Shown: positions 3,173 to 27,991 of the stretch, piece by piece
How the letters are laid out: every line of letters starts with the position of its first letter
Position numbering within the stretch: position 1 is the stretch's first letter
From: a virus
IMG/VR virus record: IMGVR_UViG_3300043436_004687
Coordinates: 197,099 to 261,098 of that record
Reading direction: 5' to 3' (one strand)
DNA: 64,000 nucleotides
The notes under the pieces: model-generated
Database searches by the model: none
Told to the model about the DNA's origin: nothing
Seen by the model: the letters and a program-made list of their open reading frames with translations, nothing else
Position numbers and translations under genes: made by a program

Positions 3173-3220
3173 ATTTATTAATTTATTTTTTTGATTAAAT
3201 TTAATTAAATTATTTAATTG

Positions 3221-5713
3221 ATGGATAAAAAAAGAATAAAAATATTGGTTTTACCTAGCGATAGGTCTGGTGTTGGAAAATATAGATCTACTGCACCACA
3301 TTTACATTTAGAGAAAATGTTTCCTGATGAATTTTCGGTTGATATTGAGTATGAACCTCAATTAGATAACGATGAGTGGTTATCACAATATGATATTATA
3401 CATTATCATAGACAAATAGGTTCGTTTGAAACTACTAAAGATGTTTTAGATAGGTTAGATAGATTAAATATTATCTCAATAATGGATTTAGACGATTATT
3501 GGGCGCCTGGACCACATCACCCAGCTTATTTAACTATAAAATCACATGAAATTGATAAAAAAATTGTAAATAATCTTAGATTAGCTAAAAATATTACCAC
3601 TACAACCGATATATTTGCTAAAGAAATTAGTAAATTAAATAAAAATGTTTTCGTGTTACCTAATGCTATTGACCCTAATGAAAAACAATTTCAAATAACC
3701 CCAATTAAATCAAATAGAATTAGAGTGGGATATTTAGGTGGGAGTTGTTATGATGATAAGACTGAAATATTAACTGATAATGGTTTTAAATTATTTAAAG
3801 ATTTAGATAAAACTGAAAAAGTAGCAACTTTAAATCCAATTACAAATGAAATTGAATATCAACAACCACTTAATTATATAGCAGAACCTTACTCTGGTTT
3901 ATTAAATTGTGCTAAAACTAAATTTATTGATTATGCTGTCACACCTAACCATAATATGTATTGTTCGGAAGCTAAGGTATTAGGTCATAAAAAACTAAAT
4001 TTAAGTTTAATTAAATCTGAGGATATTCATGGTAAAAATTTCCACGTTAAAAGAGATGGGGTTTGGGTTGGTAAAGAAGAAAAGTTTTTTAAATTACCTA
4101 AATTAACTTTAAATAAAAACTTACCGAATTTACAAGAATTAATTGATTTAATCAATAAAGATGATTTAAATTTAATCAATAAAAACGAAGAATTATTTTT
4201 AAAATATAAAAATGTTGTTGGGCGTGGAATTTTTGGTAATAATAATGAAGAAAAGAGTTTAGAAATTAGATGCTCTGTTAAAGGTAAATACTATATATAC
4301 CCAAGACCGTATAATTTAAATAAATATGGTGAGGATAGATATTTGGACATGGATAAATGGTTAGAATTTTTTGGTTTTTGGATTGCAGAAGGTTGGACAA
4401 CCAAAAGTAAAAATTTAGAACAAGTTGGTGTTTGTCAATCAAAAGGTAATGAGTATTTATCTAGAATGTTTGATTTATTAACTGAAATGGGTTTCAATCC
4501 TAAATATACCAAAGATAAAAAACAAATACGAATTTTTGATAAACAAGTTTGGACTTATTTATCACAATTTGGTGGTGCACATGATAAACATATCCCTAAA
4601 TATATTTTTGATTTATCACCAAGACAAATAAAAATATTTTTTGATTGGTTTGTAAATGGGGATGGATCTCGTGACACTAGTTCTGGTAAATATTTAAAAA
4701 CAACTTGTTACTCTAGTTCTAAAAATTTAATAGATGGTTTACAAGAATTAGCTTTAAAAATGGGATTAGTCACAGGCTTTAAAAATAGGGGTAAAAGACA
4801 TTCTATTATTAGAGATAGATATATTACTAATGTAAAAGATTCGTTAGAATTAACAGTATCATCTAAAGGTAAGTATGTTCATACGACACCTTTAGTTCGT
4901 TCGGAAGAACAATTCACCAAACAATATGATGGTTTAGTTTATTGTGTGGAAGTCCCAAATCATATTTTATTGGTTAGAAGAAATGGTAAAATATTTTGGT
5001 GTGGAAATAGTCACAGAAAAGATCTTGAACTTTTAGGTCAAATGGTGTCTAAATTAAATAGTGAAAAATTATTAGATAAAATTCAATTTGTTGCTTGTGG
5101 TTTTGATACTAGAGGCGTTGTAACAACAATCGACCCTATTACCAAAAAAGAAATAGGTAGAAGAGATTCAACACCAATGGAAAGTGTTTGGATTGAATAT
5201 GAAAAAATATTTACAAATAATTATACTACAATTAGCCCAGAATATAAAGCTCATTTAATGAGTTTTAATAAAAATGAATTTGTTGGTATTGAAAATGAAC
5301 CATATAGAAGGGTTTGGACTAAAGATGTCAATGCTTATGCGAGTAATTATAATTTATTTGATATTTCATTAGCACCAATTGAATCTAATATTTTTAATGC
5401 AATGAAATCTAATTTAAAGGTAATTGAATCTGGTTTTTTTAAAAAACCTATTATAGCTTCTAATTATGGTCCATATAAAATTGATTTAATTGATGCTTTT
5501 GTTAAGGGTGGTACTTTTAATGAAAATGGTAATGGTTTTTTAGTTAATAATAACGATAAAGATTGGGTCAGATATATTAAGATGTTAGTTAATAACCCAG
5601 AAAAAATTGAATTATTAGGTAATAATTTATATAATACAGTCAAAGATTTATATTGTATGGATAATGTTACTAAAGATAGAAGAGAATTGTATAATAAATT
5701 ATTAAATAAATAA
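3221..5713 (+). CDS. GT-B type glycosyltransferase interrupted by an intein
   Basis: The host protein, without the intein, is about 409 residues and looks like a GT4-type glycosyltransferase: an N-terminal lobe (ILVLPSDRSGVGKYRST; IIHYHRQIG; ISIMDLDDYW; VFVLPNAID), then GYLGGS/SHRKDLELL, which is the usual start of the C-terminal lobe, and a donor-site region (YNLFDISLAPIESNIFN, GFFKKPIIASNYGP). An intein separates GGS from SHRKDL (separate entry). A TTG at 3218 precedes the ATG at 3221 in frame; the ATG is chosen. The sugar acceptor is unknown: virion glycoprotein, DNA base or host surface. It is one of eight glycosyltransferases in the window. The stop at 5713 is two bases before the next ATG. 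Confidence 0.88.
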   Translation: MDKKRIKILVLPSDRSGVGKYRSTAPHLHLEKMFPDEFSVDIEYEPQLDNDEWLSQYDIIHYHRQIGSFETTKDVLDRLDRLNIISIMDLDDYWAPGPHHPAYLTIKSHEIDKKIVNNLRLAKNITTTTDIFAKEISKLNKNVFVLPNAIDPNEKQFQITPIKSNRIRVGYLGGSCYDDKTEILTDNGFKLFKDLDKTEKVATLNPITNEIEYQQPLNYIAEPYSGLLNCAKTKFIDYAVTPNHNMYCSEAKVLGHKKLNLSLIKSEDIHGKNFHVKRDGVWVGKEEKFFKLPKLTLNKNLPNLQELIDLINKDDLNLINKNEELFLKYKNVVGRGIFGNNNEEKSLEIRCSVKGKYYIYPRPYNLNKYGEDRYLDMDKWLEFFGFWIAEGWTTKSKNLEQVGVCQSKGNEYLSRMFDLLTEMGFNPKYTKDKKQIRIFDKQVWTYLSQFGGAHDKHIPKYIFDLSPRQIKIFFDWFVNGDGSRDTSSGKYLKTTCYSSSKNLIDGLQELALKMGLVTGFKNRGKRHSIIRDRYITNVKDSLELTVSSKGKYVHTTPLVRSEEQFTKQYDGLVYCVEVPNHILLVRRNGKIFWCGNSHRKDLELLGQMVSKLNSEKLLDKIQFVACGFDTRGVVTTIDPITKKEIGRRDSTPMESVWIEYEKIFTNNYTTISPEYKAHLMSFNKNEFVGIENEPYRRVWTKDVNAYASNYNLFDISLAPIESNIFNAMKSNLKVIESGFFKKPIIASNYGPYKIDLIDAFVKGGTFNENGNGFLVNNNDKDWVRYIKMLVNNPEKIELLGNNLYNTVKDLYCMDNVTKDRRELYNKLLNK
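3746..5008 (+). mobile_element. Intein with LAGLIDADG endonuclease, 421 aa
   Basis: In-frame insert, residues 176-596 of the ATG-started precursor. Block A starts at Cys (CYDDKTEILTDNGFKLFKDL). Block B has the TxxH motif in AVTPNHNMYC. Two dodecapeptide motifs mark a LAGLIDADG/DOD endonuclease: FFGFWIAEGW and FFDWFVNGDGS. The C-terminal splicing blocks are VYCVEVPNHILLVRRNGKIFW and then CGN followed by Ser of the extein. So Cys1, TxxH, terminal Asn and Ser+1 are all present; the penultimate residue is Gly instead of the usual His. Splicing would give LGGSSHRKDLE. All blocks are intact, so it is probably active both in splicing and homing. Confidence 0.92.
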
Positions 5714-9190: not shown

Positions 9191-9781
9191 ATGTTACTTT
9201 CAAAAGAAAAGATATTAAAAAACGCAAAGAAATACTTTGAAACCGCTGAAACATATAAGTTTAGTTCAGAAGAATTAACAAATTTTCTTGGACAATCTTT
9301 TATGATGGCCCCAGCATCAACATCAACAAACTTACACAATTGTTTTGAGGGTGGTTTAATAGACCATACTCTAAGAGTGGCTGCTTATGCTATTAAATTA
9401 AATGAAAACCTACCAGAAGCTTTAAAACAATCAAAAGAATCGTTGATAAAGGTTTCTTGTTTACATTCAATAGGTAAAGCACATTTATACAAACCTAATC
9501 CTTCTGATTGGCATAAACAAAACTTAGGTGAGTTATATATATTCAATAAAGATGTTATTAGTATGTCAGTAGGTGAAAGATCTGCTTATTACGCATTATC
9601 ATATGGAATACATTTAACTGAAATAGAATATCAAGCAATCATAGGTCATTCTAAAGATGTTTCAGATGCACAAAATAAATGGTATTCGCATACTTTAAGT
9701 GTCTTATTAAGACAAGCAATTGAATTGGCCATAATTGAAGAGAAAAATAATTTTAAAAATAAAATATTAAAAAATGAATAG
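9191..9781 (+). CDS. HD-domain-like protein with altered HD dyad
   Basis: 196 residues. GGLIDHTLRVAAYA (about 55-68) and LIKVSCLHSIGKA (about 86-98) match the HD phosphohydrolase superfamily, which normally reads H...HD with metal-binding residues. Here the dyad is His-Ser (LHSIGK). Later GHSKDV supplies another His. The catalytic Asp replacement suggests reduced or altered metal chemistry, or a binding role only. First gene behind the promoter at 9141; overlaps the next small gene. Likely a nucleotide-metabolism or signalling function from the neighbouring dUTPase. Confidence 0.65.
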   Translation: MLLSKEKILKNAKKYFETAETYKFSSEELTNFLGQSFMMAPASTSTNLHNCFEGGLIDHTLRVAAYAIKLNENLPEALKQSKESLIKVSCLHSIGKAHLYKPNPSDWHKQNLGELYIFNKDVISMSVGERSAYYALSYGIHLTEIEYQAIIGHSKDVSDAQNKWYSHTLSVLLRQAIELAIIEEKNNFKNKILKNE

Positions 9782-9926
9782 ATACGAATATTTAGTTGCT
9801 AATAATATGACCATAGAGCAATTAAATGGTATGGGGTCATTAGGTTGGGAATTAGTTTCTGTTGTAAATTTCCCAGGTGCAAGAATGGAAAGATATTACT
9901 TTAAAAAATTATTAAAAATAAAATAA
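9774..9926 (+). CDS. Small 50-aa protein, DUF4177-like
   Basis: ATG at 9774 overlaps the end of the HD gene (ATGAATAG). The product reads NRYEYLVANNMTIEQLNGMG, then SLGWELVSVVNFPG and ERYYFKK. The pattern of a first strand YEYLV, helix ending LN.LGS.GWELV and a final strand with YYFKR is that of small DUF4177-type proteins common in phages and bacteria. Role unknown. Five bases later comes dut. Confidence 0.65.
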   Translation: MNRYEYLVANNMTIEQLNGMGSLGWELVSVVNFPGARMERYYFKKLLKIK

Positions 9927-9931
9927 TAAAT

Positions 9932-10372
9932 ATGCAATTAAATTTAAAAAATGAATCCACTAACCCTAATCCAGAATATACAACCGATGGTGCTTCTGGG
10001 TTTGATATCAGATGTAGCGAAGATGGTGTCCTTAAATCTGGTGAAATAAAAGCAATTTCAACTGGTTTATTTTTCGAATTACCAACTGGGTTTGAAATCC
10101 AAGTACGTTCTAGAAGTGGGTTAGCAGTTAAATCTGGTGTAGTTGTTTTGAACTCACCAGGCACTATCGACGAAGATTTTTTAGGGGAAGTAAAACTAAT
10201 AATGATTAATCATAGTAAAGTTGATTTTGAATATAAATACGGTGATAGACTTGCTCAAGGAGTTGTAGCTTCAGTTACTGCAAAAACTAAAGTAAATTTT
10301 AATGAAGTGAAAGAATTTACAAAAGAAACTGAACGTGGAAATAACGGATTTGGATCAACTGGTATAAATTAA
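9932..10372 (+). CDS. dut: dUTP diphosphatase (trimeric type)
   Basis: 146 residues, full length for the family. All five conserved motifs are visible: DGASGFDIRC (I), RSRSGLAVK (II), NSPGTIDEDFLGEVKLIMIN (III), YGDRLAQGVV (IV) and RGNNGFGSTG (V, the C-terminal arm that closes over the substrate). It hydrolyses dUTP to dUMP, keeping uracil out of phage DNA and feeding dTMP synthesis. The stop touches the ATG of the next gene, so both are translated as a pair. Confidence 0.96.
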   Translation: MQLNLKNESTNPNPEYTTDGASGFDIRCSEDGVLKSGEIKAISTGLFFELPTGFEIQVRSRSGLAVKSGVVVLNSPGTIDEDFLGEVKLIMINHSKVDFEYKYGDRLAQGVVASVTAKTKVNFNEVKEFTKETERGNNGFGSTGIN

Positions 10373-11395
10373 ATGATAAAGCAAAATAAAATAGGGCTTG
10401 AAAGTAGAAGTCAAGCAAATCCATTTAGAGAAGATGGGTTTTTACCATTAATTACTTCTAATATGTTCAGTGTAGTTGGGTTAGAAAACTACCAAACATT
10501 TCTAGATAATAAAATTAATGTAGCTTTGCCAAGAGGTAATGAATATGTTAAAGATAAAAATGTTTGGAACAGTCTATCGATAAATGATTTTGAGGAAAAA
10601 TATAATAACCCTAATGTTGATTGGCTTGAAGATTTTTATGCTAACATTTTAATTGATTGTGCCAATGGGAATAACCCTAGATTACATTTGATAATTAAAA
10701 AAGCTAAAGAAATTTATGGTAACAGAATTAAAATTATGTCTGGTAATATTTCTAGTGTTGAAGCATTTATTGAATTAGCAAAATCTGGTTGTGATTATAT
10801 TAGAGTTGGTGTAGGTGGTTCTAATTCTTGTAACACTAGTCGCAATACTGGTGTTGGACAAACTAATTTAGGTAAATTAATTAAACAGTGTGACCAAGCT
10901 AGAGAAGAATTATATATTATTAGGGATGTTAAAATAGTTGCTGATGGTATTTCAAGTTATGTTTCATTGTGTGAAAAAAAATATGGTTATTTGGACAATG
11001 GTTATGCTGCTATAAATAAATTATTATATAATGGTGCTGATTTAGTAATGATTGGTAAATTATTTGCACAATGTGAAGAAAGTAGTGGTGAGAAAAAACA
11101 TTCTGGTAAGATAAAAATAAATCATAATTCTCAATTAGCTTACCTTGTAGACCCAAATTCATCTTTATTAGTTAAATATCAAGGTATGAGCACCAAAGAA
11201 GCTCAAGGTAATTATAATATTAATTTAAAACATTCTGAGGGAAACACATCTTGGGTTGAGGTTAAGTGGAAATTAAGTGAATGGTTAAATGGTTCAATAG
11301 TTGATAGTGATTATTTACCAGGTTTTACAAATTGTCTTAAAAGTGCTATGAGTTATGTTGGTGCTAAGCATTTAAATGATTTTTTTAAAAAATAG
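10373..11395 (+). CDS. IMP dehydrogenase / GMP reductase family protein
   Basis: 340 residues, TIM-barrel type. Recognisable are LPLITSNMFSVVG at the N-terminus, IKIMSGNISSVEAFIELAKSGCDYIRVGVG, the active-site loop SCNTSRNTGVG (compare CTTRxxTGVG of GMP reductase and IMPDH), VKIVADGISSY, and GADLVMIGKLFAQCEES. The CBS insertion of IMPDH is absent, which favours GMP reductase or a compact IMPDH. Both would shift host purine pools; the neighbouring dUTPase supports a nucleotide role. Which of the two reactions it performs cannot be told from sequence alone. Confidence 0.85.
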   Translation: MIKQNKIGLESRSQANPFREDGFLPLITSNMFSVVGLENYQTFLDNKINVALPRGNEYVKDKNVWNSLSINDFEEKYNNPNVDWLEDFYANILIDCANGNNPRLHLIIKKAKEIYGNRIKIMSGNISSVEAFIELAKSGCDYIRVGVGGSNSCNTSRNTGVGQTNLGKLIKQCDQAREELYIIRDVKIVADGISSYVSLCEKKYGYLDNGYAAINKLLYNGADLVMIGKLFAQCEESSGEKKHSGKIKINHNSQLAYLVDPNSSLLVKYQGMSTKEAQGNYNINLKHSEGNTSWVEVKWKLSEWLNGSIVDSDYLPGFTNCLKSAMSYVGAKHLNDFFKK

Positions 11396-11396
11396 G

Positions 11397-11427
11397 TTTG
11401 ATTTATAAAAAATATAAACTATATTTG
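11397..11427 (+). promoter_or_regulatory. Bacteroidota-type promoter
   Basis: TTTG at 11397-11400, 19 bases, TATATTTG at 11420-11427. It begins inside the three-base gap after the previous stop. The promoter occupies the region that an in-frame TTG start at 11398 would use, so the true start of the next gene is the ATG at 11449. Confidence 0.78.
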
Positions 11428-11448
11428 CAACATAAAAATATAAAAAAT

Positions 11449-11967
11449 ATGGAAATTACAATTACAGAAGCATTAAGGTTAAAAAGTGATTTATCAAAAA
11501 TAGTTAACACCTTAAAAAATAAAATTAGGTACTCTTCTTTTGGTGATAATTTTGAGGATGATCAGAAAACATCTAAAGATGAGGATAAATTTGTTGATGT
11601 TGAGACATTATTAATCACTTCATTGAGTTATTCAGAAGAGTTGAATAATTCTTTATCTGACTACAATAAAGATAAACAAGTTGATAAATTGGTGAGAAAA
11701 ATGCAAAACGCTAAACTTTTACTTGAAGTTTATGAATCTTCTTTATCAAAAACAAAGGCTACTTCTCAAACAACCTTTGTAAATCTTGGCACTTCAAGAC
11801 AATCAGTTGTACATAAATTTGTACCCACTGTAACATCAAAAGAAATAAAAACTAGAATATCACTTACTAAAGATTTGGTCAGACAATACCAATCTAAAGT
11901 TGAAGAGTTAAATCAAGGTAAATTAACCTTATCCTTCAATTATGATAATATTGAAGAATTAAATTAA
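11449..11967 (+). CDS. DIP1984/septicolysin-like helical protein
   Basis: 172 residues from ATG 11449, which lies about 22 bases after the promoter box. ITEALRLKSDLSKIVNTLKNKI at the N-terminus, then a long helical body and, near the end, VPTVTSKEIKTRISLTKDLVRQYQSKVEELN. The order of a first helix with EALRLK.DL...L, a middle LL....YSEELN and a final K..VPTV segment is that of the DIP1984 family (function unknown, named septicolysin in databases). Weak but consistent resemblance. Monocistronic: followed by a non-coding region. Confidence 0.5.
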   Translation: MEITITEALRLKSDLSKIVNTLKNKIRYSSFGDNFEDDQKTSKDEDKFVDVETLLITSLSYSEELNNSLSDYNKDKQVDKLVRKMQNAKLLLEVYESSLSKTKATSQTTFVNLGTSRQSVVHKFVPTVTSKEIKTRISLTKDLVRQYQSKVEELNQGKLTLSFNYDNIEELN

Positions 11968-11989
11968 AAGTATTATATCTTAAGTTAGT

Positions 11990-12280
11990 ATAAAAACTGT
12001 CGGTGGTTTCATCGAATAGGGTTCAAATTCACTGAATTATTTGATATTTTATTATTTGTTAGAAAACAAATTTCAAGGCAACTATATACATAAATTATGT
12101 AAATTTAAATTTAAGGGTAGTAGAGGATTGATGTTAAAAAGCCTTAATCACCAAACACACGTAAAACTATGTAAAATTGTAATCATGTAAAATTGTTTGA
12201 AGCGGAAAAGCTTATTTAATTTAGAAAACTTAGGGTATTTTATAAAACCACATAAAAATTAATTTTTATGTGGTTTTTTG
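11990..12280 (+). ncRNA. Candidate structured non-coding RNA
   Basis: About 290 bases without a plausible reading frame, higher in G than neighbouring gaps, ending at a strong terminator. Visible elements: a perfect hairpin ATTTGTT-AGAA-AACAAAT near 12053, a small hairpin ACATAA-ATTATG near 12090, GATT.../AATC around 12127-12150, a duplicated ATGTAAAATTGT unit near 12173 and 12187, and AAGC-GGAAAA-GCTT near 12200. The upstream gene already ends at 11967 and nothing follows before the terminator, so the transcript seems to be the product. It does not match tmRNA, RNase P or group I intron landmarks that I looked for. Boundaries are approximate. Confidence 0.5.
12244..12279 (+). terminator. Rho-independent terminator
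   Basis: Perfect stem AAAACCACATAAAAATT / AATTTTTATGTGGTTTT with a run of T. It closes the non-coding region at 11990-12280 and insulates the glycan cassette downstream. Confidence 0.88.
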
Positions 12281-12326
12281 TTGATTATTAAGTATTAAAT
12301 GCTTATATTATAAAAAATATAAATTA

Positions 12327-13823
12327 ATGATTACAATAATTTGTTCGTCACAACATAATCTTGATTCTTTTAAAGAACATATAATAAACTTATCGGGGTT
12401 ACAAAAAAATGAAATACAATTTTTAGGTTATCTTAATAATGGTGAATTTTCTTTATCTGAAATTTATAATAAGGGTATTATAGAATCAACGAATGATTAT
12501 TTAGTTTGTGTTCATGATGACATCAGATTAGAAAAAAATTGGGGTGTTAAATTATTAAAAGATTTTAATGATAACCCAGGTTTTTCAATAATTGGTAAAG
12601 CTGGTTCTTGTTATTTCCCAGAAAGTGGTATATTTTGGGAGCGAATGCAATATACAATGGTCGGGCAGGTTTATCACCACCCTAAAGATGGGAAAAAATT
12701 CTTATCTAAATATTCCCCTAAATTACCTTTTTTAGTTCCAGTAGTTACCATTGATGGTTTATTTATAGCCTTCAATAAAAGAAAAATAAAATATAATTTT
12801 GATGAAACATTGAAGGGGTTTCATTTTTATGATCATGGTTTTTGTCTACCCAATTATTTAAGTGGTGTTAAAATAGGTGTAACATCTTCATTTGAAATTA
12901 CTCATAACTCATTGGGTAAACCTAATGAAACTTTTTTTGAAACTAAAGAAAAATTTGTTGATAAATATAAGGGCCTTTTACCTTTAGATTTAAAACCAAA
13001 TAGTGTTTATTATAATGAGGTTAAAAATAAGGTTAGAAATTCTGGTAAGGTGGCGGTGATCATCCCAACTAAAGGTAACCTTGAATTATTATTTCAATGT
13101 GTTGATTCATTCTTTTTGAATTGTGATTCTAACACTTTTGATATTATTATAGCTGATACTGGTTCAACTAAAAAAGAATTATTAGAAATTAAGGAGCGAT
13201 ATAGTAATAGGGTAAATCTAGTTGAATACAATTATTATAACTTTGCTAAAATTAATAATGATGTGGTCAAAAATTTAGATTGTCAATATGAATATTTATT
13301 ATTTTGTAATAATGATATAAAATTGTTAAATGATGTAGTGTCTGGTATGCTTAAAGTTTTTAAAGAAAATAAAAAAGCTGGTACCGTTGGTTGTAGATTA
13401 CATTTCAAAGACAATACCATCCAACATGATGGAGTATTTTCTGTTATACATAAAGAAAAAAGAAGTTTTAATGTATCACATATAAATTTAAATAATTATT
13501 ATAATTATAAATTAGGTTTAAATGAGGTGATTGGTTCTACAGCTGCTTTATTAATGATTAGGAAAAATACATTTATCAATGCTGGTATGTTTAATGAAAA
13601 TTATAATGAATGTTTCGAAGATGTGGAATTGAATATGAAATTAGTTACTATGGGTTATAAAAATTATTGTCATAGTGATTTAGTTGCATATCATTATGAG
13701 TCTCAAACTAGGAACCAAGATGTAAATAAAAACGATAAGTTAATGAGGGATTATAATGAAAATCTTTTACCATTCTTCAATCAAAATATCAATAAATTAA
13801 AAGAAAAAACAATATTTATATAA
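12327..13823 (+). CDS. Two-domain GT-A glycosyltransferase
   Basis: 498 residues with two glycosyltransferase-like halves. Residues 1-225: TIICSSQHNLDSF, DYLVCVHDDIRLEKNW (DxD-like), VVTIDGLFIAFNK, an N-terminal GT2-like domain. Residues 240-480: VAVIIPTKGNLELLFQCVDSF, DIIIADTGST, YNFAKINND, YLLFCNNDIKLL, QHDGVFSV, GSTAALLMIRK, CFEDVELNMKL; this is a classic GT2 fold of the rhamnosyltransferase type. It opens a five-gene cassette with overlapping starts and stops (13823 is shared with the next gene). Acceptor unknown. Confidence 0.88.
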   Translation: MITIICSSQHNLDSFKEHIINLSGLQKNEIQFLGYLNNGEFSLSEIYNKGIIESTNDYLVCVHDDIRLEKNWGVKLLKDFNDNPGFSIIGKAGSCYFPESGIFWERMQYTMVGQVYHHPKDGKKFLSKYSPKLPFLVPVVTIDGLFIAFNKRKIKYNFDETLKGFHFYDHGFCLPNYLSGVKIGVTSSFEITHNSLGKPNETFFETKEKFVDKYKGLLPLDLKPNSVYYNEVKNKVRNSGKVAVIIPTKGNLELLFQCVDSFFLNCDSNTFDIIIADTGSTKKELLEIKERYSNRVNLVEYNYYNFAKINNDVVKNLDCQYEYLLFCNNDIKLLNDVVSGMLKVFKENKKAGTVGCRLHFKDNTIQHDGVFSVIHKEKRSFNVSHINLNNYYNYKLGLNEVIGSTAALLMIRKNTFINAGMFNENYNECFEDVELNMKLVTMGYKNYCHSDLVAYHYESQTRNQDVNKNDKLMRDYNENLLPFFNQNINKLKEKTIFI

Positions 13824-14605
13824 TGGTTTTAGGTGTAAGTTACAATGTGTTTGATGGTATTGAATTATTAACTAAATCAATTAAAAGTATTCGAAGTTCA
13901 GTTGATTATATATCAGTTATATATCAAAATACTTCTAATTTTGGTAATGAGATAAGTGAGAATAATTTAGATTTATTTTTAAAATTAAAAAAAGATAAGT
14001 TAATAGATGATTATTTAGAATATAAGCCTAATATTAAATTACAGCCTCATCAAAATGAAGTTAATAAACGGAATTATGGTTTAGCAATGTCTGAAGCTAA
14101 TGGTTGTACTCATCATATGTCAATGGATACTGATGAATTTTATGATGAAGTTGAATTTAACAATGTGAAAAAAATAATAATTGAGGGTGATTATGATTCA
14201 TCTGCTTGTCAAATGATGACTTATTATAAATCAGGTGATTTTGCATTGTCACCAAGTGAAGAGTATTTTGTCCCGTTTATAGTTAAGTTAGGTATTGATG
14301 TAAGATATGATATGAATAATCAATTTCCAGTTTTAGTAGATTCAACTAGAAAAGTTAACGGTAAAAAATGTTTATTGTTAGATAGACAAACCATTCAAAT
14401 GCATCACATGTCTTATGTTAGAAACAATCTATATTTAAAATTAAATAATTCTTCGGCTAGATGTAATTTTAAAGATATTGACTACATAGTTGATTATTTC
14501 GATAAATGGTCATTCCCTAATAAAGCGTTAATGGGTGGTTTACCAAATTGGTTTAGTGATATTGTAAAAGTTGAAAATAAATTTAATATTAATGAGCGAA
14601 ATTAA
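13823..14605 (+). CDS. GT2-like glycosyltransferase
   Basis: 260 residues. VLGVSYNVFDGIELLTKSIKSIRSSVDYISVIYQN at the start, NKRNYGLAMSEANGCTHHMSMDTDEFYD in the middle with the DTD metal/nucleotide-sugar motif. Typical for glycosyltransferases that use a GT-A fold. ATG overlaps the previous stop by one base (TAATG). The 3' end overlaps the next gene by 14 bases. Confidence 0.82.
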   Translation: MVLGVSYNVFDGIELLTKSIKSIRSSVDYISVIYQNTSNFGNEISENNLDLFLKLKKDKLIDDYLEYKPNIKLQPHQNEVNKRNYGLAMSEANGCTHHMSMDTDEFYDEVEFNNVKKIIIEGDYDSSACQMMTYYKSGDFALSPSEEYFVPFIVKLGIDVRYDMNNQFPVLVDSTRKVNGKKCLLLDRQTIQMHHMSYVRNNLYLKLNNSSARCNFKDIDYIVDYFDKWSFPNKALMGGLPNWFSDIVKVENKFNINERN

Positions 14606-15236
14606 TGTAGATGTTATAATATTATCTGATATTAAAACGAGTGATTTGACTTTACAATCAATAAAAACTTTAAAAGAGTCTGAAACTAATATTAATTTTA
14701 ATATAGTTGTCATAGAAAATTCAACACATTATTATTCTGGTGTAACAAATTTAAAATTAAATTTGGAATTCAATTATAATATGTTTATGAATCTTGGGGC
14801 TAAAGCAACTAATAGTGATTATATTGTATTTGCAAATAACGATTTAATCTTCAATAAGAAGTGGTTTTCTGAGTTATTAAAGTATGATTTTGATTGTATG
14901 TCACCAAGATGTCCAGTTGATGTGAGACAACAGAATATAAATATGGATTTTATTAGTGGTTATCAAGTTGGAAATGTTTTTAGCGGTTGGTGTTTTGTTT
15001 TAAAAAGAAAAATATGGGAACAAATAAATGGTTTAGATGAAGATTTTAAATTCTGGTATGCTGATAATGCTACAATAGAACAATTAAAAACTATAAATGT
15101 CGTCCCTTATTTAATTACCAACTCAATAGTAGAACATTTAGGGAGCAGAACGTTAACAAAAGAAACTAAAGAATTACAACATCATCTTACGGGTGAACAA
15201 AGCAGAATTTTTTATGAAAAATATGGAAGAAAATAA
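14592..15236 (+). CDS. GT2-like glycosyltransferase
   Basis: 214 residues from ATG 14592 (an in-frame TTG at 14571 is less likely). VDVIILSDIKTSDLTLQSIKTL, FNIVVIENST, DYIVFANNDLIF and GWCFVLKRKIWEQINGLDEDFKFWYADNATIEQL show a compact GT-A glycosyltransferase. It has the NND in place of DxD, as in several GT2 enzymes. Central member of the cassette; the next gene starts 23 bases before its stop. Confidence 0.82.
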   Translation: MSEINVDVIILSDIKTSDLTLQSIKTLKESETNINFNIVVIENSTHYYSGVTNLKLNLEFNYNMFMNLGAKATNSDYIVFANNDLIFNKKWFSELLKYDFDCMSPRCPVDVRQQNINMDFISGYQVGNVFSGWCFVLKRKIWEQINGLDEDFKFWYADNATIEQLKTINVVPYLITNSIVEHLGSRTLTKETKELQHHLTGEQSRIFYEKYGRK

Positions 15237-15843
15237 CTTTATTCACCCAACTTCAATAGTTGAAGATAATGTAATATTAGGTAAAAATAATTATATAGGG
15301 CCATTTTGTCTTATTAAAAGTGGTACTATAATTGGGGATAACAATAGATTTGAGGCTTATGTTTCTATTGGAACTAATCCAGAACACAAAGAATTTTTTA
15401 CTGGAAGTGACTATTCGGTGACTATAAATAATAATAATACTTTTAGAGAATTTGTTACAGTTAATTCAGGATCTGTTAAAGACACTCTAATAGGTAATAA
15501 TTGTATTTTATTAAGAAATTCACATGTTGGTCATGATTGTATTTTAGAAGATGGTGTTACTTTATCTTGTAACGTATTAGTTGGTGGACATTCTTTAATT
15601 AAACAAGGGGTTAATATGGGTTTAGGTTCTATTTGTCACCAATATTCTATTTTAGGTGATTATTCTATGATAGGTATGGGTGGTATTGTTACCAAATCAA
15701 GTAATATTAAACCTGGTTTTATTTATGTTGGTAATCCTTGTAAAGTTTTAAAGGTAAATGAAATTGGTCTTAAACGAAATAACATTGATGTTAATAAATG
15801 GGAAATGTTATCTAAAAAATACGAAGAATTATGTTTGAAATAG
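15214..15843 (+). CDS. LpxA-like left-handed beta-helix acyltransferase
   Basis: 209 residues from ATG 15214; an ATG at 15223 is an alternative. Hexapeptide repeats fill residues 8-180 (IHPTSIVEDNVILGKNNYIG and so on). Residues diagnostic for LpxA are kept: SHVGHDC with the catalytic His (about 107), GGHS, ICHQYSILG and the late GLKRNN. LpxA transfers an acyl chain to UDP-GlcNAc in lipid A synthesis; here, inside a phage glycosyltransferase cassette and lacking about 50 C-terminal residues, it more likely acylates or acetylates a sugar nucleotide or glycan. Substrate is not determinable. Confidence 0.85.
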   Translation: MKNMEENNFIHPTSIVEDNVILGKNNYIGPFCLIKSGTIIGDNNRFEAYVSIGTNPEHKEFFTGSDYSVTINNNNTFREFVTVNSGSVKDTLIGNNCILLRNSHVGHDCILEDGVTLSCNVLVGGHSLIKQGVNMGLGSICHQYSILGDYSMIGMGGIVTKSSNIKPGFIYVGNPCKVLKVNEIGLKRNNIDVNKWEMLSKKYEELCLK

Positions 15844-16454
15844 GTATAGTAGTGCCTTGTTGGGGAAGGCCTCTCAGAACCAGACGAATTATAGAAGCTA
15901 TTTTAAATCAAAATATAAATAATTGGGAAGCTTTTGTTATAGGGGACGGTTGCCCATTATTCCAAAAAATGATAGATTCTGGGGAAGCTAATATTTATAT
16001 TGAGAAAGCTGAAATAAATGGAAATAAATTGCATTTATTTAACTTAGATAGAAATTATGGTGGTTTTGGTTATAAAATAGTGGACTATGCTATTGAAAAT
16101 TCAAAATCCAAATATTTTATTTTTGCTGGTAATGATGACATTTTACTTGAAAATCATTTTGAGCATTATCTAAGTGAAGTTGATGATTTTGATATGATAG
16201 CTTACCCCACATTTGTAGGTCCTACTAAATCAATTAGATACCCTAAATTAGAATGTAGCAGTGTCGGGCATTCTGAAATAATAATTAAAACTGAATTAAT
16301 TAAAGATTATAAACATTCTTCAAATTATGGGCATGATTGGAATTTTATTGAGTTCATATTAAATAAAACTAACAAAATTAAAATATCAAATAACACAAAT
16401 TATACTTATATAGTTACTCATATTCCAGGAATAACTATTGACATAATAGATTAA
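15831..16454 (+). CDS. GT-A glycosyltransferase
   Basis: 207 residues: IGIVVPCWGRPLRTRRIIEAIL, WEAFVIGDGCPLF, NYGGFGYKIVDYAI, KYFIFAGNDDILLENHF (GNDD at the DxD position). A small GT2-like enzyme. Starts 13 bases before the end of the acyltransferase gene and is the last gene of the cassette 12327-16454. A 13-base gap precedes the following virion-type gene. Confidence 0.85.
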   Translation: MFEIGIVVPCWGRPLRTRRIIEAILNQNINNWEAFVIGDGCPLFQKMIDSGEANIYIEKAEINGNKLHLFNLDRNYGGFGYKIVDYAIENSKSKYFIFAGNDDILLENHFEHYLSEVDDFDMIAYPTFVGPTKSIRYPKLECSSVGHSEIIIKTELIKDYKHSSNYGHDWNFIEFILNKTNKIKISNNTNYTYIVTHIPGITIDIID

Positions 16455-16467
16455 AAATAAATAAATT

Positions 16468-17337
16468 ATGATTTCAGATTGGCTTAAAAGAAAATTAGCA
16501 ATGGTTGCATTGGCAACAGCAAATGTAGAAAAAAATGCATTTAATAATCAAGGTAATATGCTTTCAGATGGTATAGGGCACCAAAGATTAAAAACAACTG
16601 ATTCTTTATCGGAAGCTTTAAAACGTGGTGAAGTTACTGCTGAAGTTGAAGCATTAAGATGGCGCATGTACAAGATAATTGATCATCTAGACGGTAGAAA
16701 AACCAATATAATTGGAACTGAATTAGATGAAAATGGTGATGAGAGGTATATTACTGAAACTGTTGCTAAACGTAAACCTAATATGAGACAATATATGGTA
16801 GATCCTTACGATAGTTATCCTTTGGAAATTATCGTGGTAAATGATAAAACTGTTATGGGGATTACTGAAGCTAATCAGAAATTAGAAGATCAAACCATTA
16901 TGGTAAATAGAAGTAATTTAAATAAGGTGGATATTGAATATTCTACCACTAAAATGTGTGTTAGAGATATTGGTGGAGGTCAAAAATTATTAGAATTTTA
17001 TATTTCTCAATACCCAAACGAATTTGATAGAAAAACTAGGTTGATGATTTCTGAATTAGAAAGATGTTCCAATGGTTTTAAATCAAATATTTTAGATATT
17101 GATGGGGTTGGTTTTCAAAGTGTGAATTCAACTATTGGTGTTTCTCCTAATTTATTATATGAATATGAAATTTTAGGTTTTGATAAAATTGTTAAATTTA
17201 ATGGGCATTATATTGTTAAATTTAAAGCTAATGTTATTGTTGATGGTGAAAACATATTTGAGAAATACAGAGTTGAAAGTCTTGATCAAAAATATAATGA
17301 AAATTTAAGTAAAAAAAATACTGATTATTATTTATAA
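16468..17337 (+). CDS. Unknown 289-aa protein
   Basis: Not recognised. No signal peptide; N-terminus SDWLKRKLAMVALATANVEKNAFNNQ is helical, then a conserved-looking region (SEALKRGEVTAEVEALRWRMYKII) and beta-rich C-terminal half with an IMVNRSNLNKVDIEYSTTKM segment. A structured RNA with a terminator follows the stop codon. Possibly a virion protein; this is context only. Confidence 0.65.
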   Translation: MISDWLKRKLAMVALATANVEKNAFNNQGNMLSDGIGHQRLKTTDSLSEALKRGEVTAEVEALRWRMYKIIDHLDGRKTNIIGTELDENGDERYITETVAKRKPNMRQYMVDPYDSYPLEIIVVNDKTVMGITEANQKLEDQTIMVNRSNLNKVDIEYSTTKMCVRDIGGGQKLLEFYISQYPNEFDRKTRLMISELERCSNGFKSNILDIDGVGFQSVNSTIGVSPNLLYEYEILGFDKIVKFNGHYIVKFKANVIVDGENIFEKYRVESLDQKYNENLSKKNTDYYL

Positions 17338-17344
17338 ATTTGGT

Positions 17345-17464
17345 TACAGACGTGTAAATCGTAAGATTAGGAATTTATTTTAAATTATATCTTCGGATTA
17401 AAATAAGCTAACTAAGGAAATCGTAAGTTCCATTAAACTCACAATATTATTGTGAGTTTTTTTT
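17345..17464 (+). ncRNA. Candidate structured RNA with three tetraloop hairpins
   Basis: Just after the stop at 17337: AATC-GTAA-GATT (17357-17368), a 9-bp stem TTATTTTAA (17375-17383) with TTAAAATAA (17398-17406) whose loop holds C-TTCG-G, then GGAA plus C-GTAA-G plus TTCC (17416-17431), and a terminator. GNRA and UUCG tetraloops are unusually stable and rarely occur together by chance in such AT-rich DNA. ATCGTAAG is present twice. It could be a small RNA processed from the 3' end of the upstream transcript. Family unknown. Confidence 0.55.
17435..17464 (+). terminator. Rho-independent terminator
   Basis: AAACTCACAATA / TATTGTGAGTTT stem followed by a run of T. Separates the 16468 gene and its RNA tail from phoH. 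Confidence 0.88.
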
Positions 17465-17534
17465 ATTTATTAAACATTTACATTTTTATGTTAATAATTA
17501 AATTGAAGTTATATAACAGAATTTAATTTTTAAT

Positions 17535-18698
17535 ATGATTAAAAAGAAAACTGCTGCAACATCTGCAACAAAAACAGCAAGTTCATCCAGAACAACAAAA
17601 ACTAAGGAAAGTTCTGATTTGACTAAATCAAAATCTACTCAAGTTTCTATTAACACGGTTTTAAAGTCTAAAGTAAGATTTAAATTTAGGACCATTAAAC
17701 AAAGGGAGTTTTCAGATCTTATTGATGATAAAGAAATAGTCGTAGCTTATGGTCCAGCTGGAACTGGAAAAAGTCTTATCTCAATTGCCAAGGGTCTTGA
17801 ATTATTACAAGCTGACGATTCTAAATATAAACAATTAATTATTGTTAAACCAGCTGTAGAAGCTGAGGAATCATTAGGGTTTTTAAAGGGTTCTTTAGAA
17901 GAAAAAATGGAACCTCATATTGCTTCTTCTATGGATATTGTTGATAAATTAGTAAGCGAACCAACAAGAATTAATTTAGTTGATGCTAAAATTATTAGAG
18001 TTGAACCACTTTCTTTCATAAGAGGTAAAACTTTTAGCGATTCTGTGTTAGTGTTCGAAGAAAGTCAAAATGTTTCCCCAAATCAAATGAAAACAATATT
18101 AACTAGAATAGGTGAAAATAGTAAATATATTATTTCTGGGGATTTAGACCAGTCAGATAAATATAGAAATGTTAAGGAGAGTGGTTTATATGATTTAATT
18201 CAAAGACATAAAAATATTGAAGAAATTGGTTTTTTTGAATTTGGTGAGGGGGATATAGTAAGAAACCCTTTAATTACTAAAATTCTTAAAAATTATGAAA
18301 AAGTTGATACTAAAATTAACAAAAAAGAATTGTTAATTGAAGATGAATTATTAGAAAAAAGAGTACAAAAAAGAATTGATGAATCAAAAATAATTAAAAC
18401 TAAACCAATTATTATCAAGGAAAATGTTCTTGGTGGTGGGAAAAAAGATAATAAATTATTAAATAGCGAGTATACTGCTATTGATATGAATGGTAATGTT
18501 TATAGTAAAAAAACAATGGGCAGGGCTGTAAGTGATTATAATGAAAAACTAAATGAAGAGGTTTTAACTAAAACTAATGGTGTATTAAAACACGATCCTT
18601 TATCTAATAGGGAAAAATTAAATGAAGAAATTGTTTTAAAATCTGATACTAAAGGTTCAAATTGGCTTACAAAATTATTTACAACTAAAAATAAATAG
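17535..18698 (+). CDS. phoH: PhoH-like ATPase
   Basis: 387 residues. Residues 1-45 are Thr/Ser/Lys-rich. The P-loop ATPase core follows: YGPAGTGKSLISIAKG (Walker A, about 73-88), QLIIVKPAVEAEESLGFLKGSLEEKMEPH, SFIRGKTF, SVLVFEESQNV (Walker B), IISGDLDQSD. Very similar in order to PhoH proteins of myoviruses. The exact role in phages is not established; RNA-related or phosphate-starvation functions have been proposed. A Lys-rich tail of about 130 residues extends beyond the core. Followed after 12 bases by the next gene. Confidence 0.9.
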   Translation: MIKKKTAATSATKTASSSRTTKTKESSDLTKSKSTQVSINTVLKSKVRFKFRTIKQREFSDLIDDKEIVVAYGPAGTGKSLISIAKGLELLQADDSKYKQLIIVKPAVEAEESLGFLKGSLEEKMEPHIASSMDIVDKLVSEPTRINLVDAKIIRVEPLSFIRGKTFSDSVLVFEESQNVSPNQMKTILTRIGENSKYIISGDLDQSDKYRNVKESGLYDLIQRHKNIEEIGFFEFGEGDIVRNPLITKILKNYEKVDTKINKKELLIEDELLEKRVQKRIDESKIIKTKPIIIKENVLGGGKKDNKLLNSEYTAIDMNGNVYSKKTMGRAVSDYNEKLNEEVLTKTNGVLKHDPLSNREKLNEEIVLKSDTKGSNWLTKLFTTKNK

Positions 18699-18710
18699 TT
18701 ATATTAAATT

Positions 18711-19304
18711 ATGGCGGTAATAGGAATAACAATTGATGAAGTTTTAAGAGATTTTTTAGGTCAATTCGCTACTATGTATGATAGATATATTTCTGAATTT
18801 TATCTAGAAGATTCACCAGTGACAAATTTCAATCAATTAGATGAAGTTTTTAAATTTAATTCTATTGATGAAATGAATTATTTTTTATATGTTGAACATT
18901 CTTTAGAAGTTTTTGGTACTGCCAAACCTTCTTATCCAGATGTTATTGTGGATTTTAATGAATTTTTAACAGATATTGTTGATGAGGGTGAACATGAAAT
19001 AATAATTTTATCCAAAGAAGTTGAAAATAGTATTCAAGCAACATTATTTTTCTTATCTAAATTAGGTTGTAAAGCGACTCATATAAGATTTGTTAAAAAT
19101 TATGAAAATATGTGGGATTATGCAGATATCATAGTAACAGCAAATCCAAATACTCTACTTTCAAAACCAAGTGAAAAAGTATCAATTAAAGTTGATAGTA
19201 CTTATAACAATAATGTAGGGTCAGATTACAAAATTAAAAAACTTTCAGATTTTACTAAATCTGAAAAATTACAAAAAGAAATTTTAAATAGAGAATATGA
19301 GTAA
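18711..19304 (+). CDS. HAD-like protein, nucleophile apparently lost
   Basis: 197 residues. IGITIDEVLRDFLGQF at the N-terminus resembles HAD motif I (DxDGVLxD) of 5'-nucleotidases, but the first Asp is replaced (TID). EHEIIILSKEVENS fits motif II and DYADIIVTANPNTLLSKP followed by VSIKVDSTYN fits the late region. So a HAD fold of the NT5C type that may not catalyse the usual phosphotransfer. Overlaps the next gene by 8 bases. Confidence 0.55.
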   Translation: MAVIGITIDEVLRDFLGQFATMYDRYISEFYLEDSPVTNFNQLDEVFKFNSIDEMNYFLYVEHSLEVFGTAKPSYPDVIVDFNEFLTDIVDEGEHEIIILSKEVENSIQATLFFLSKLGCKATHIRFVKNYENMWDYADIIVTANPNTLLSKPSEKVSIKVDSTYNNNVGSDYKIKKLSDFTKSEKLQKEILNREYE

Positions 19305-19674
19305 TTTATTAAATATTGGAGGTCAAAATTATTTTATTGATTTTCAATCAGCTGAAAAACTACTTACAAGTGGTAGTACATTTAAGGGTGGTAAGGTTGA
19401 AGATAAAGAAACAACCGAAACATTTGATTCAGATGGCAAATTAATTGGGAAAGTAGTTATAACTAAAGAAACTCTTAGAGGTAAAGAAGTTGATATGTTT
19501 AGATATGAAACTATTAAAGATATGATGGATATTATTTTTTCTGATGATGATGAAGAAGATCCAGCTGTCAAAGTAAATAAAAAGAAGTTAGATTCCCAAC
19601 CAATGAGTTTTAAAATAGCTTTTAACACATTACTCGAATATGGGGTATTAAATATAGCAGAAGATGAAGAATAA
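19297..19674 (+). CDS. Unknown acidic 125-aa protein
   Basis: Two beta-rich stretches (LLNIGGQNYFIDFQSAEKLLTS; KLIGKVVITKETLRG) then an acidic loop (FSDDDEEDPAVK) and a helix. No family recognised. Overlaps HAD-like gene upstream and glycosyltransferase downstream, thus translationally linked. Confidence 0.65.
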   Translation: MSNLLNIGGQNYFIDFQSAEKLLTSGSTFKGGKVEDKETTETFDSDGKLIGKVVITKETLRGKEVDMFRYETIKDMMDIIFSDDDEEDPAVKVNKKKLDSQPMSFKIAFNTLLEYGVLNIAEDEE

Positions 19675-20737
19675 TATGGAAAAAAATGAACAAATAAAAT
19701 CAGTTATCAATCAACTTGATAATAAAGAATTCGGAATGTACTTTTTTGTGCATGACACATTAGGCAACCCAACAGCTGGTATTGCCAATATATATGAACA
19801 TGTAAAGGTTTTAAATGACTTAGGTTATAAAGCAAGTATTTTACATGAAAAAAATGATTATAAGGGTGTTGCTACTTGGTTAGGTGATGAATATATGAAA
19901 TTACCTCACGTATCGATTGAAAGTCAACAATTAAAAGTAGTTTCTTCTGATTTTATATTCATACCAGAAATTTTCTCAACATTAATGGATCAGATTAAAG
20001 AGTTTCCTTGTAAAAAAGTAGTTATTTCTCAAAGTTATTCATATGCATTAGAATTATTACCAATAGGTAAAAGTTGGGTTGATTTTGGTTTCAAAGATGT
20101 CATAACGACTAGTGACGTGCAAGCAGATTATCTTAAAACCTTATTCCCAAGTCTAAATGCTAAGGTTATACCAGTATCTATACCAGAATATTTTTCACCA
20201 AGTAAAGAGATTCCAAAACCAATTGTTGCAATTCATACTAGAGATCAAGCAGATACATTAAGAATAATTAAATCCTTCTATTTACAATTCCCACAATATA
20301 AATGGGTTACATTTAGAGATTTAAGGGGGTTACCAAGAAAAGAATTTGCTGAAGAACTTAAAAATAGTGCAGTTGCTGTTTGGGTGGATGATGCTTCTGG
20401 TTTTGGAACTTTTCCTTTAGAAGCTATTGAATGTAATGTTCCAGTTATAGGTAAACTACCAACTTTAATTCCAGAATACATATTAAATGGTGAAAACATT
20501 AGGGAAAATGGGGTTTGGACTAACAACACTTTATTAATTCCAGAGTTAATTGCTGAATTCATGAGATTATGGTTTGAGGATTCGTTGCCAAGTGTTTTAT
20601 TTGATGAAATGAAATTAAGTAAAGGTCAATATCAAGAAGGTATGCAAGTTGTTAAAATTAGTGAAGTTTATTCTTCATTAATTCAAGAAAGAAAAAATGA
20701 ATTTTTACTTATGTTAAATAACGATAAAGATGAGTAA
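19664..20737 (+). CDS. GT-B (GT4-like) glycosyltransferase
   Basis: 357 residues from ATG 19664; a second ATG at 19676 is possible. MYFFVHDTLGNPTAGIANIYEHVKVLNDLGYKASIL (N-lobe), then IHTRDQADTLRIIKSF, and the donor-binding signature SGFGTFPLEAIECNVPVIGKLP with the Glu of the EX7E-like motif. Acceptor unknown. It overlaps the genes on both sides (11 and 8 bases). Confidence 0.82.
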   Translation: MKNNMEKNEQIKSVINQLDNKEFGMYFFVHDTLGNPTAGIANIYEHVKVLNDLGYKASILHEKNDYKGVATWLGDEYMKLPHVSIESQQLKVVSSDFIFIPEIFSTLMDQIKEFPCKKVVISQSYSYALELLPIGKSWVDFGFKDVITTSDVQADYLKTLFPSLNAKVIPVSIPEYFSPSKEIPKPIVAIHTRDQADTLRIIKSFYLQFPQYKWVTFRDLRGLPRKEFAEELKNSAVAVWVDDASGFGTFPLEAIECNVPVIGKLPTLIPEYILNGENIRENGVWTNNTLLIPELIAEFMRLWFEDSLPSVLFDEMKLSKGQYQEGMQVVKISEVYSSLIQERKNEFLLMLNNDKDE

Positions 20738-21134
20738 AAAAGTATTTCTAGGTGGTACCACCAATAATTCTGATTGGAGGGATAAATTAATTAAAAAATT
20801 AAAAGTTGATTATTTTAATCCAGTTGTTAAAGATTGGGATGAAAAAGCTCAAAAAGAAGAGATAAAACAAAGGAAAGAATGTGATTTTGTTTTATATGTA
20901 ATCACCCCTAAAATGGAAGGTGTGTATAGCATTTTTGAGGTTGCCGATGATAGTAACAAAAGACCAGAAAAAACAATATTTTGTTATTTGTTGGAAGATG
21001 GTGATAAAACATTTTCAAAACACCAAATAAAATCTTTAGATATGGTTGGTGAAGGTGTTAAAGAAAATGGTGGTAAATGGTTTAAATCATTAAATGAAAT
21101 TAGTGATTTCCTTAATTTTAATAAAAATTTATAA
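20730..21134 (+). CDS. Nucleoside 2-deoxyribosyltransferase-like protein
   Basis: 134 residues. KKVFLGGTTNNSDWRDKLIKKL, DYFNPVVKDWDEKA, KECDFVLYVITPKMEGVYSIFEVADDS follow the domain related to nucleoside 2-deoxyribosyltransferases (Nuc_deoxyrib_tr_2): first strand with GGT, WR at the helix start, conserved CDFVLY strand and the Glu in a helix that acts as nucleophile in the enzymes. In phages it may salvage nucleosides or cleave NAD-like molecules. Role here is inferred. Confidence 0.7.
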   Translation: MSKKVFLGGTTNNSDWRDKLIKKLKVDYFNPVVKDWDEKAQKEEIKQRKECDFVLYVITPKMEGVYSIFEVADDSNKRPEKTIFCYLLEDGDKTFSKHQIKSLDMVGEGVKENGGKWFKSLNEISDFLNFNKNL

Positions 21135-21142
21135 ATAAAAAA

Positions 21143-21931
21143 ATGAGTAAACAAATAGAAAATAATTCTCAGATATCGGTTATAATTCCAGTACATTTAT
21201 TAGATGAAAGTACAAAAAAATTATTTGATGTTGCCATCGAAAGTGTAAAATCGCAAACGGAATTACCAAAAGAAATTTTAGTAGTTGGACCAAAAGAAGT
21301 TTTAGATTTTGTTGGTAAAGATAATGATGGTTTTAGATTCGTTTTAAATGAAGGTAAAACTGATTTTGCATCACAAATAAATTTAGGTGTTGAAAAATGT
21401 GAGACTGAATGGTTTTGTATTTTAGAAATGGATGATGAGTTAGCACCTACTTGGTTATCTAATGTTAATAAATATAAATCAAAATATTTAGATGTTGATT
21501 CATTTTTACCTATCATAGTAAATCGAGAATTCGAAACTAATGCTTTTGTTGGATTTGATAATGAGGCGGTATGGGCCGCTGAATTTTCAACTGAATTGGG
21601 TTTAATTGATCATAATTGTTTATTAGCTTATCAAGCTTTTAATTTAGATGGTATGGTTATGAAAAAAGATGTGTTTATCTCTAACGGTGGTTTAAAACCA
21701 TCAATGAAATTAACTTTTATATATGAGTTTTTACTTAGAATTACATATTTTTCATCTACTGTTATGGTAATACCTAAATTTGGTTATAGACATATGAATT
21801 CTAGAGTTGGTTCATTGTTTAATACTTATAAAAACACTTTAAGTTTAGATGAACAAAGATGGTGGCTTTCATTAGCTAAAAAAGAATATTTTCACACTAA
21901 AGACAGAGGGATTACATATGAAAAAAATTAA
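21143..21931 (+). CDS. GT2-like glycosyltransferase
   Basis: 262 residues. QISVIIPVHLLDESTKKLFDVAIESVKSQ, KEILVVGPKEVLDF, FASQINLGVEKCETEWFCILEMDDEL (MDDE at the DxD site), then FNLDGMVMKKDVF. A GT-A enzyme. Sits in the same plus-strand run as the previous GT and the deoxyribosyltransferase-like gene, followed directly by the sigma factor. Confidence 0.85.
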   Translation: MSKQIENNSQISVIIPVHLLDESTKKLFDVAIESVKSQTELPKEILVVGPKEVLDFVGKDNDGFRFVLNEGKTDFASQINLGVEKCETEWFCILEMDDELAPTWLSNVNKYKSKYLDVDSFLPIIVNREFETNAFVGFDNEAVWAAEFSTELGLIDHNCLLAYQAFNLDGMVMKKDVFISNGGLKPSMKLTFIYEFLLRITYFSSTVMVIPKFGYRHMNSRVGSLFNTYKNTLSLDEQRWWLSLAKKEYFHTKDRGITYEKN

Positions 21932-21937
21932 TAACCT

Positions 21938-22696: not shown

Positions 22697-22713
22697 TTTA
22701 TAAAATCCCACTA
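22680..22713 (+). terminator. Terminator overlapping the sigma-factor stop codon
   Basis: ATAGTGGGATTTTATA / TATAAAATCCCACTAT palindrome; left arm encodes the last residues of the sigma factor. T-run is short, so strength is uncertain; symmetric sequence could act both ways. Confidence 0.65.
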
Positions 22714-22737
22714 TTTATAGTTATAAACAATATAATT

Positions 22738-27807: not shown

Positions 27808-27878
27808 TGCGGTTTAGTGTAATTGGTAACATAACGGGCTCATAACCCGAAGTCGAGGTTCGAGTCCTCAATCCGCTA
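27808..27878 (+). tRNA. tRNA-Met (CAT), initiator-like
   Basis: Folds as a tRNA: U8, D arm GTGT/ACAT with AATTGGTA loop, anticodon arm CGGG-CTCATAA-CCCG with CAT at 27841-27843, T loop TTCGAGT. The anticodon stem has the three consecutive G-C pairs that mark initiator tRNAs, and position 1-72 is an unpaired T-T, again initiator-like. The 11-24 pair is T-A, which is elongator-like. A T-T mismatch also occurs at 6-67. CCA is not encoded. Could be an initiator, an elongator or, with lysidine, an Ile tRNA. Confidence 0.85.
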
Positions 27879-27991
27879 CAAATCAAGGTTAATACCGAAT
27901 TGGCATTGAGCATTAAAAAGCTTTAGAATTATCTTTAATGGTAATAAAAATGTTAGTTCAAAATAATAACAATTATTTAAATTAATTAAAA
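27879..27991 (+). other. Spacer after tRNA with one hairpin
   Basis: 113 bases without a gene. A hairpin CATTAAAAAG / CTTTAATG lies around 27912-27937. It may be the 3' trailer of the tRNA transcript or leader of the 27992 gene. No second tRNA was found here. Confidence 0.35.

Follow-up and report, generated by a model that had tools for sequence, protein, structure and literature searches.

What occupies the middle of a glycosyltransferase gene in a phage genome, and is the occupant still mobile? The DNA analysed here (the window) is a 64,000-nucleotide stretch corresponding to positions 197,099–261,098 of a 339,635-base virus record. The record carries T4-type major capsid, portal and terminase proteins as well as several other glycosyltransferases, and the host genome is that of a T4-like jumbo phage, i.e., a very large virus of bacteria. 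The T4-type genes were located in the window as follows:

32417–34171, minus strand: T4-type capsid
38712–40751, minus strand: T4-type portal
41054–42820, minus strand: T4-type terminase

Other predicted glycosyltransferases (12327–13823, 15831–16454 and 19664–20737) and PhoH (17535–18698) were found in the 9191–24982 segment of the window, and a single tRNA gene, tRNA-Met (CAT), was present at 27808–27879.

The gene of interest is an uninterrupted 831-codon frame on the plus strand (3218–5713) when counted from TTG 3218. ATG 3221 is the likelier start, and the joined extein counted from this codon comprises 409 residues. The frame is divided as follows:

3218–3745, plus strand: N-extein of the glycosyltransferase, ending in RVGYLGGS (phrog_7162 glycosyltransferase, E 3e-16)
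3743–3745, plus strand: Ser codon at −1
3746–5008, plus strand: intein, 421 residues, Cys1 to Asn421
3746–4075, plus strand: N-terminal splicing (Hint) part with blocks A and B (model pLDDT ca. 97)
3746–3748, plus strand: nucleophile Cys1 of block A, invariant in 39/39 relatives
3941–3952, plus strand: block B TxxH, T66-P-N-H69, with both T66 and H69 conserved throughout (39/39 relatives)
4100–4312, plus strand: low-confidence stretch, intein residues ca. 119–189 (pLDDT 44–59)
4313–4885, plus strand: LAGLIDADG homing endonuclease domain (PF14528; PI-PkoII profile match; Foldseek matches to I-DmoI and PI-SceI)
4361–4393, plus strand: LAGLIDADG motif 1, LEFFGFWIAEG, with catalytic acid E215 (E or D in 38/39 relatives)
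4625–4666, plus strand: LAGLIDADG motif 2, QIKIFFDWFVNGDG, with catalytic acid D306 (D in 38/39 relatives)
4898–5008, plus strand: C-terminal splicing part with blocks F and G, ending in YCVEVPNHILLVRRNGKIFWCGN and including H406
5003–5008, plus strand: penultimate Gly420 and terminal Asn421
5009–5011, plus strand: Ser codon at +1
5009–5713, plus strand: C-extein from Ser+1 (SHRKDLE) through the stop codon (phrog_7162, E 5e-16)

Almost certainly, the insert is an intein that has kept its LAGLIDADG homing endonuclease intact, and its host is a GT4-like GT-B glycosyltransferase encoded by a T4-like jumbo phage. Positions 3746–5008 encode exactly 421 in-frame residues (CYDDKTEIL...FWCGN) followed by SHRKDLE. 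A sequence-only reading had placed a full-length intein with a LAGLIDADG endonuclease here; these limits proved exact to the base, and Pfam, PHROG, tblastn and the predicted fold were in agreement. Cys1, TxxH, both LAGLIDADG motifs, the terminal Asn, Ser+1 and the open frame, all named in that reading, were likewise confirmed. Together with a Hint fold and restoration of the host protein upon removal, these are the traits of a class-1-type intein, and those of a homing endonuclease were found in the two LAGLIDADG helices with acidic residues and in a patchy, horizontally moving distribution. The insert matched Pfam LAGLIDADG_3 (PF14528) above the curated cut-off, its sequence profile retrieved PI-PkoII (2cw7; E 8.5e-17), and both of its ends matched PHROG families with intein-bearing members (thymidylate synthase, RNR and PhoH). 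In the AlphaFold model of the intein (pLDDT 87.6), the best Foldseek matches in the PDB were PI-PkoII, TliVMA and PI-SceI (E down to 2e-15), with I-DmoI matching the middle part. The low-confidence stretch was longer in the window allele than in aligned relatives. The GC content of the insert was 26.4%, compared with 26.5% for the window. Two other readings of the DNA were rejected: an RNA intron in the window or in its relative L001 (no Rfam intron match; the window frame is open throughout) and matches of the C-terminal part to TATA-binding proteins, which were weak and attributable to chance.

A penultimate His is common among class-1-type inteins; it is not universal, so it is not strictly defining. 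The window intein lacks this His, and Gly, which the sequence-only reading had singled out at this position, was indeed present; it was no peculiarity, being shared by 37 of the 39 aligned intein relatives. A special meaning of this residue was therefore discarded, and Gly is the normal state of the clade rather than a defect. The block-F His was retained in 34/39 relatives, and the residue following the terminal Asn (Ser+1 in the window) was S, T or C across the relatives.

Compared with PI-PkoII (2cw7), TliVMA (7qsu/7qss) and PI-SceI (1vde), the window intein shares a Hint domain split by a LAGLIDADG endonuclease with two motifs as well as Cys1, TxxH and the C-terminal Asn, but it is only 10%–15% identical to them, has Gly where they have the penultimate His and resides in a glycosyltransferase, whereas their hosts are a DNA polymerase or ATPase. 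Phage inteins of the same type, found in Corynebacterium phage P1201 thymidylate synthase, in nucleotidyltransferases of Mycobacterium phages and in phage terminases and RNR, matched both ends of the window intein (29%–33% identity, 69%–79% cover). These occupy other host genes and insertion sites, and the glycosyltransferase-site inteins form a separate clade. Thus, the intein itself is of a known kind, and the glycosyltransferase is an unusual host gene. No report of an intein in a phage glycosyltransferase was found in an incomplete coverage of the literature consisting mostly of titles and abstracts, and no priority is claimed.

From these features, we infer the following course. An 830-residue precursor would be translated, and Cys1 would undergo an N–S acyl shift aided by T66 and H69 of block B. 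Attack by Ser+1 would then yield a branched ester, and cyclisation of Asn421 would release the intein; because the penultimate residue is Gly, this step might be aided by H406 of block F or by another group. A final O–N shift would join YLGGS to SHRKDLE, producing the 409-residue enzyme. The freed intein, folded around the two LAGLIDADG helices, would cut the GGSSH site in intein-free copies of the gene carried by co-infecting phages, and the intein would spread when the break is repaired from the occupied allele.

The intein-free state was directly observable. An IMG/VR search with the joined extein matched 176 stretches, and the best 80 of these (49%–64% identical) all encode the enzyme continuously across the site without an insert, as does the 735-kb phage LR756501. 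Since these relatives are continuous at this position, the 421 residues are an insert, and the position is a real empty/occupied site. The same comparison upheld the expectation that joining the exteins restores a normal host sequence. In nearly all relatives, the empty junction read [IFV]GWLGGS↓SHLxDL (e.g., WLGGS↓SHLKDLE; arrow, insertion point), and the empty-site DNA at the insertion point was GGTGGTAGT↓AGTCAC.

The sequence-only reading had also raised the question of whether other inteins use this site, and many did. By tblastn, an insert sharing 50% identity was detected in the same place in a virus of 362 kb. A profile of two alleles matched 121 viral stretches, of which 80 were retained, and 12 stretches in prokaryote genomes, mostly archaeal. 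Among the 80 of 121 matches, ca. 24 viral loci had an intein in the same enzyme with an identical junction, Cys1 and GN↓S, a frequency that is biased because the loci were retrieved with an intein query. The tree set included 17 other distinct same-site alleles, which were patchily distributed. Same-site alleles in other large-phage contigs (L084–L102, L104, L105, L137 and L156) occupy the same gene and codon junction, and their inteins are 33%–60% identical to that of the window. The window allele is longer (421 residues) than the other full-length same-site alleles (351–383 residues) and, unlike it, some of these relatives lack the endonuclease motifs or the whole domain. The alleles at the glycosyltransferase site thus range from full-length through endonuclease-decayed to a 141-residue mini-intein. 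Three members of the clade constitute a natural decay series:

L156, 4001–4423: mini-intein, 141 residues, same clade and site
L137, 4001–4948: intein with decayed LAGLIDADG motifs, same clade and site
L116, 4001–4984: intein with decayed LAGLIDADG motifs, same clade, in a remote glycosyltransferase family

All glycosyltransferase-site inteins, including those in the remote family, formed one clade (SH-aLRT 100) apart from inteins of other genes. On the extein tree, no fewer than 14 changes were needed to account for presence and absence; the trees were quick ones in which many forks are unresolved and some branches are long. Divergence of host gene and intein was discordant: L085 had the most divergent extein (42%–48% identical to the main group) but a typical intein (67%–71%), and L102 showed the reverse (63%–76% and 46%–52%, respectively). 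This discordance and the repeated transfer into one site are best explained by homing. In L116–L118 and L126, the same intein clade was found at the homologous position of the remote family (junction WHGSY↓THKSDF). The L116 enzyme aligned over its full length with the window's family (hhalign probability 98.5%), and this alignment paired the junctions WLGGS↓SHLKD and WHGSY↓THKSD. These sequence comparisons suggest that the clade jumped between paralogous sites of two glycosyltransferase families.

The Ser codons flanking the insertion were AGY in 9/18 (−1) and 8/18 (+1) occupied alleles and in 9/58 and 7/58 empty alleles, respectively; this enrichment (P ca. 0.005–0.008, without kinship correction) might mean that TCN codons escape cleavage, or might instead reflect kinship or co-conversion.

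Whether the window allele itself still homes is a separate matter. In five close allele pairs, dN/dS was ca. 0.1, alike in the splicing part and the endonuclease part (the ratio was read from close alleles, the pair formed by the window and L084 being too diverged for it), and this indicates that both domains are under purifying selection. The window allele keeps the two LAGLIDADG catalytic acids, and its endonuclease is probably active, judging from these residues. It is unlikely, but worth weighing, that the intein remains competent for splicing with an endonuclease that no longer homes, and that it is passed on vertically as a neutral passenger. Such a history would agree with the nearly equal divergence of the window intein and extein from their relatives (62/60 with L084), with the window's placement in the extein tree, which is unresolved, and with the decayed and mini versions at the site (L137, L116 and L156). 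The retained catalytic acids and the low dN/dS of the endonuclease part in close alleles run counter to it, and the intein/extein discordance elsewhere in the clade points to transfer. Homing by an intact endonuclease is the preferred reading.

The nature of the host enzyme bears on what the insertion does to it. Against curated glycosyltransferase profiles, the extein scored below the cut-off for PF00534 and PF13692, and it matched phrog_7162 (glycosyltransferase) with E 1e-34, the N half aligning to profile positions 28–146 and the C half to 174–308. The AlphaFold model of an intein-free relative (L004; pLDDT 89.6) had a two-lobe fold, and its best Foldseek matches in the PDB were GT-B enzymes, including the GT4-type MshA, PimA and BshA (E down to 7e-13). 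This model supports assignment of the host enzyme to GT-B glycosyltransferases resembling GT4 transferases. In the model, the insertion point lies between the strand at 164–169 and the helix at 175, in a glycine-rich loop that follows the opening strand of the predicted C-terminal Rossmann lobe. G170, G171, S172, S173, H174 and D177 were invariant among 34 aligned relatives, and the junction flanks are among the most conserved residues of the family. The earlier description of the site as a conserved lobe junction therefore held for its conservation but not for its position, which is this loop rather than the inter-lobe linker. By analogy with GT4 enzymes, the split loop would presumably contact the sugar nucleotide. 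Because the insertion splits this conserved loop, the precursor is probably inactive before splicing.

An inactive precursor, along with the conditional splicing known for other inteins, would also suit a regulated switch through which the phage gains from delayed glycosyltransferase activity, e.g., under a redox or temperature signal; this reading is highly improbable, as the patchy presence and absence in close relatives argues against a needed function and no signal is indicated by the sequence. A non-splicing enzyme in which the 421 residues form an additional, ordinary domain can be virtually dismissed despite the continuous open frame, as such a domain was looked for and is absent in the best 80 of 176 relatives, would split the loop after the first C-terminal-lobe strand and would have to carry a full set of intein junction residues and an intein fold.

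The intein with its homing endonuclease was not the only element associated with this gene in relatives. L092 and L102 carry a second, unrelated classical intein of 377 residues (CIVGDSLIS...HN↓S) at K↓SQLKVIE in the C-terminal lobe, and these enzymes would need two splicing events; the corresponding site in the window glycosyltransferase (K↓SNLKVIE) is empty. In L001, which shares the window's intein, an ORF containing a NUMOD3 motif interrupts the start of the glycosyltransferase immediately after codon 19. A 5′ cassette of this kind was found in 20 viral loci, 13 of them distinct, in relatives only:

L001, 4925–6020: 5′ cassette
L178, L179, L181–L184, L186, L188, L191, L193, L195 and L196: 5′ cassette

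The cassette consists, in order, of ATG, a recoded N-terminus ending in TPVSRKIKVLVVPSDRTGV[S/G], a stop, a gap of 2–6 nt, a landing codon and YFRS in any frame. The take-off codon is AGC, AGT, GGT or GGC, and the stop is TGA or TAA; take-off and landing codons agree in the first two bases in 13/13 and in the amino acid in 12/13. The recoded stretch folds into a hairpin whose end lies immediately upstream of the take-off codon, with 94% of cells paired and 18 double-change cells, compared with 6.1 in shuffles and far below in slid controls. Folding z values were −3.4 to −6.3 in three cassette examples and −1.2 at the window's own 5′ end, and no cassette hairpin was found when looked for in the window genome. 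The stop was not an artefact of the search pattern, since of the 45 matches returned by a rescan without it, 25 lay in unrelated DNA and the other 20 were the same loci as before, each with a stop and with codons matched in their first two bases. An endonuclease ORF (full, partial or remnant) lies directly upstream of the cassette in 8/13, and an older copy of the gene start precedes the endonuclease ORF in four of the 13 loci. No second gene start was seen in the remaining loci within the stretch examined, and RNA-intron splicing is therefore unlikely to rescue them. Reinitiation past the stop is also unlikely, as the first ATG in the downstream frame of L001 lies ca. 55 codons further on.

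In T4 gene 60, ribosomes bypass a gap of 50 nt between matched codons; the take-off codon is followed by a stop, and a stem-loop and a homing endonuclease lie on the 5′ side (PMC5009743). The matched codons, stop, 5′ stem-loop and upstream homing endonuclease of this gene 60/mobA cassette recur in the cassette of the relatives, which differs in its 2–6 nt gap, host gene and NUMOD3-type endonuclease. By this analogy, we lean slightly towards regarding the cassette as a short ribosomal bypass of the T4 gene 60 type. If so, six or more distinct relatives (L084, L087, L088, L090, L093 and L096) would have to combine a ribosomal hop on the mRNA with splicing of the resulting protein to obtain a single enzyme. 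On balance, the jumbo-phage gene may well have taken in three unrelated elements, each at a conserved site of its own, namely the window's intein, the HN-type intein in the C-terminal lobe and the homing cassette at codon 19 with its 2–6 nt bypass.

Reading of the sequence indicated further apparent inteins elsewhere in the virus record, outside the window:

G000:C1, 146550–148186, minus strand (L222 and L223): probable split RNR intein, C-part NNVLVHN↓C and N-part NL↓CCLGGETN
G000:C1, 118459–118824, minus strand (L224): apparent C-terminal intein part at the start of a gp46/SbcC-like ORF, YYSNGIVSHN↓TTFSVD

A separate ORF resembling GIY-YIG endonucleases lies between the halves of the former, and the ribonucleotide reductase intein is probably split in the manner of metagenomic ‘fractured genes’. 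The gp46/SbcC-like ORF apparently carries an intein ending in VSHN↓TTFSVDSVKFLFFGK at the P-loop.

These findings extend the range of phage proteins occupied by inteins to a glycosyltransferase. The series of empty, full-length, decayed and mini states at one site allows the homing cycle to be tested directly within a single gene family, and the penultimate-Gly intein clade could be useful in splicing applications. The locus as a whole is of greater interest than this one intein. The cassette, if real, would be a second phage case of a homing endonuclease tied to the bypassing of ribosomes, here across a much shorter gap.
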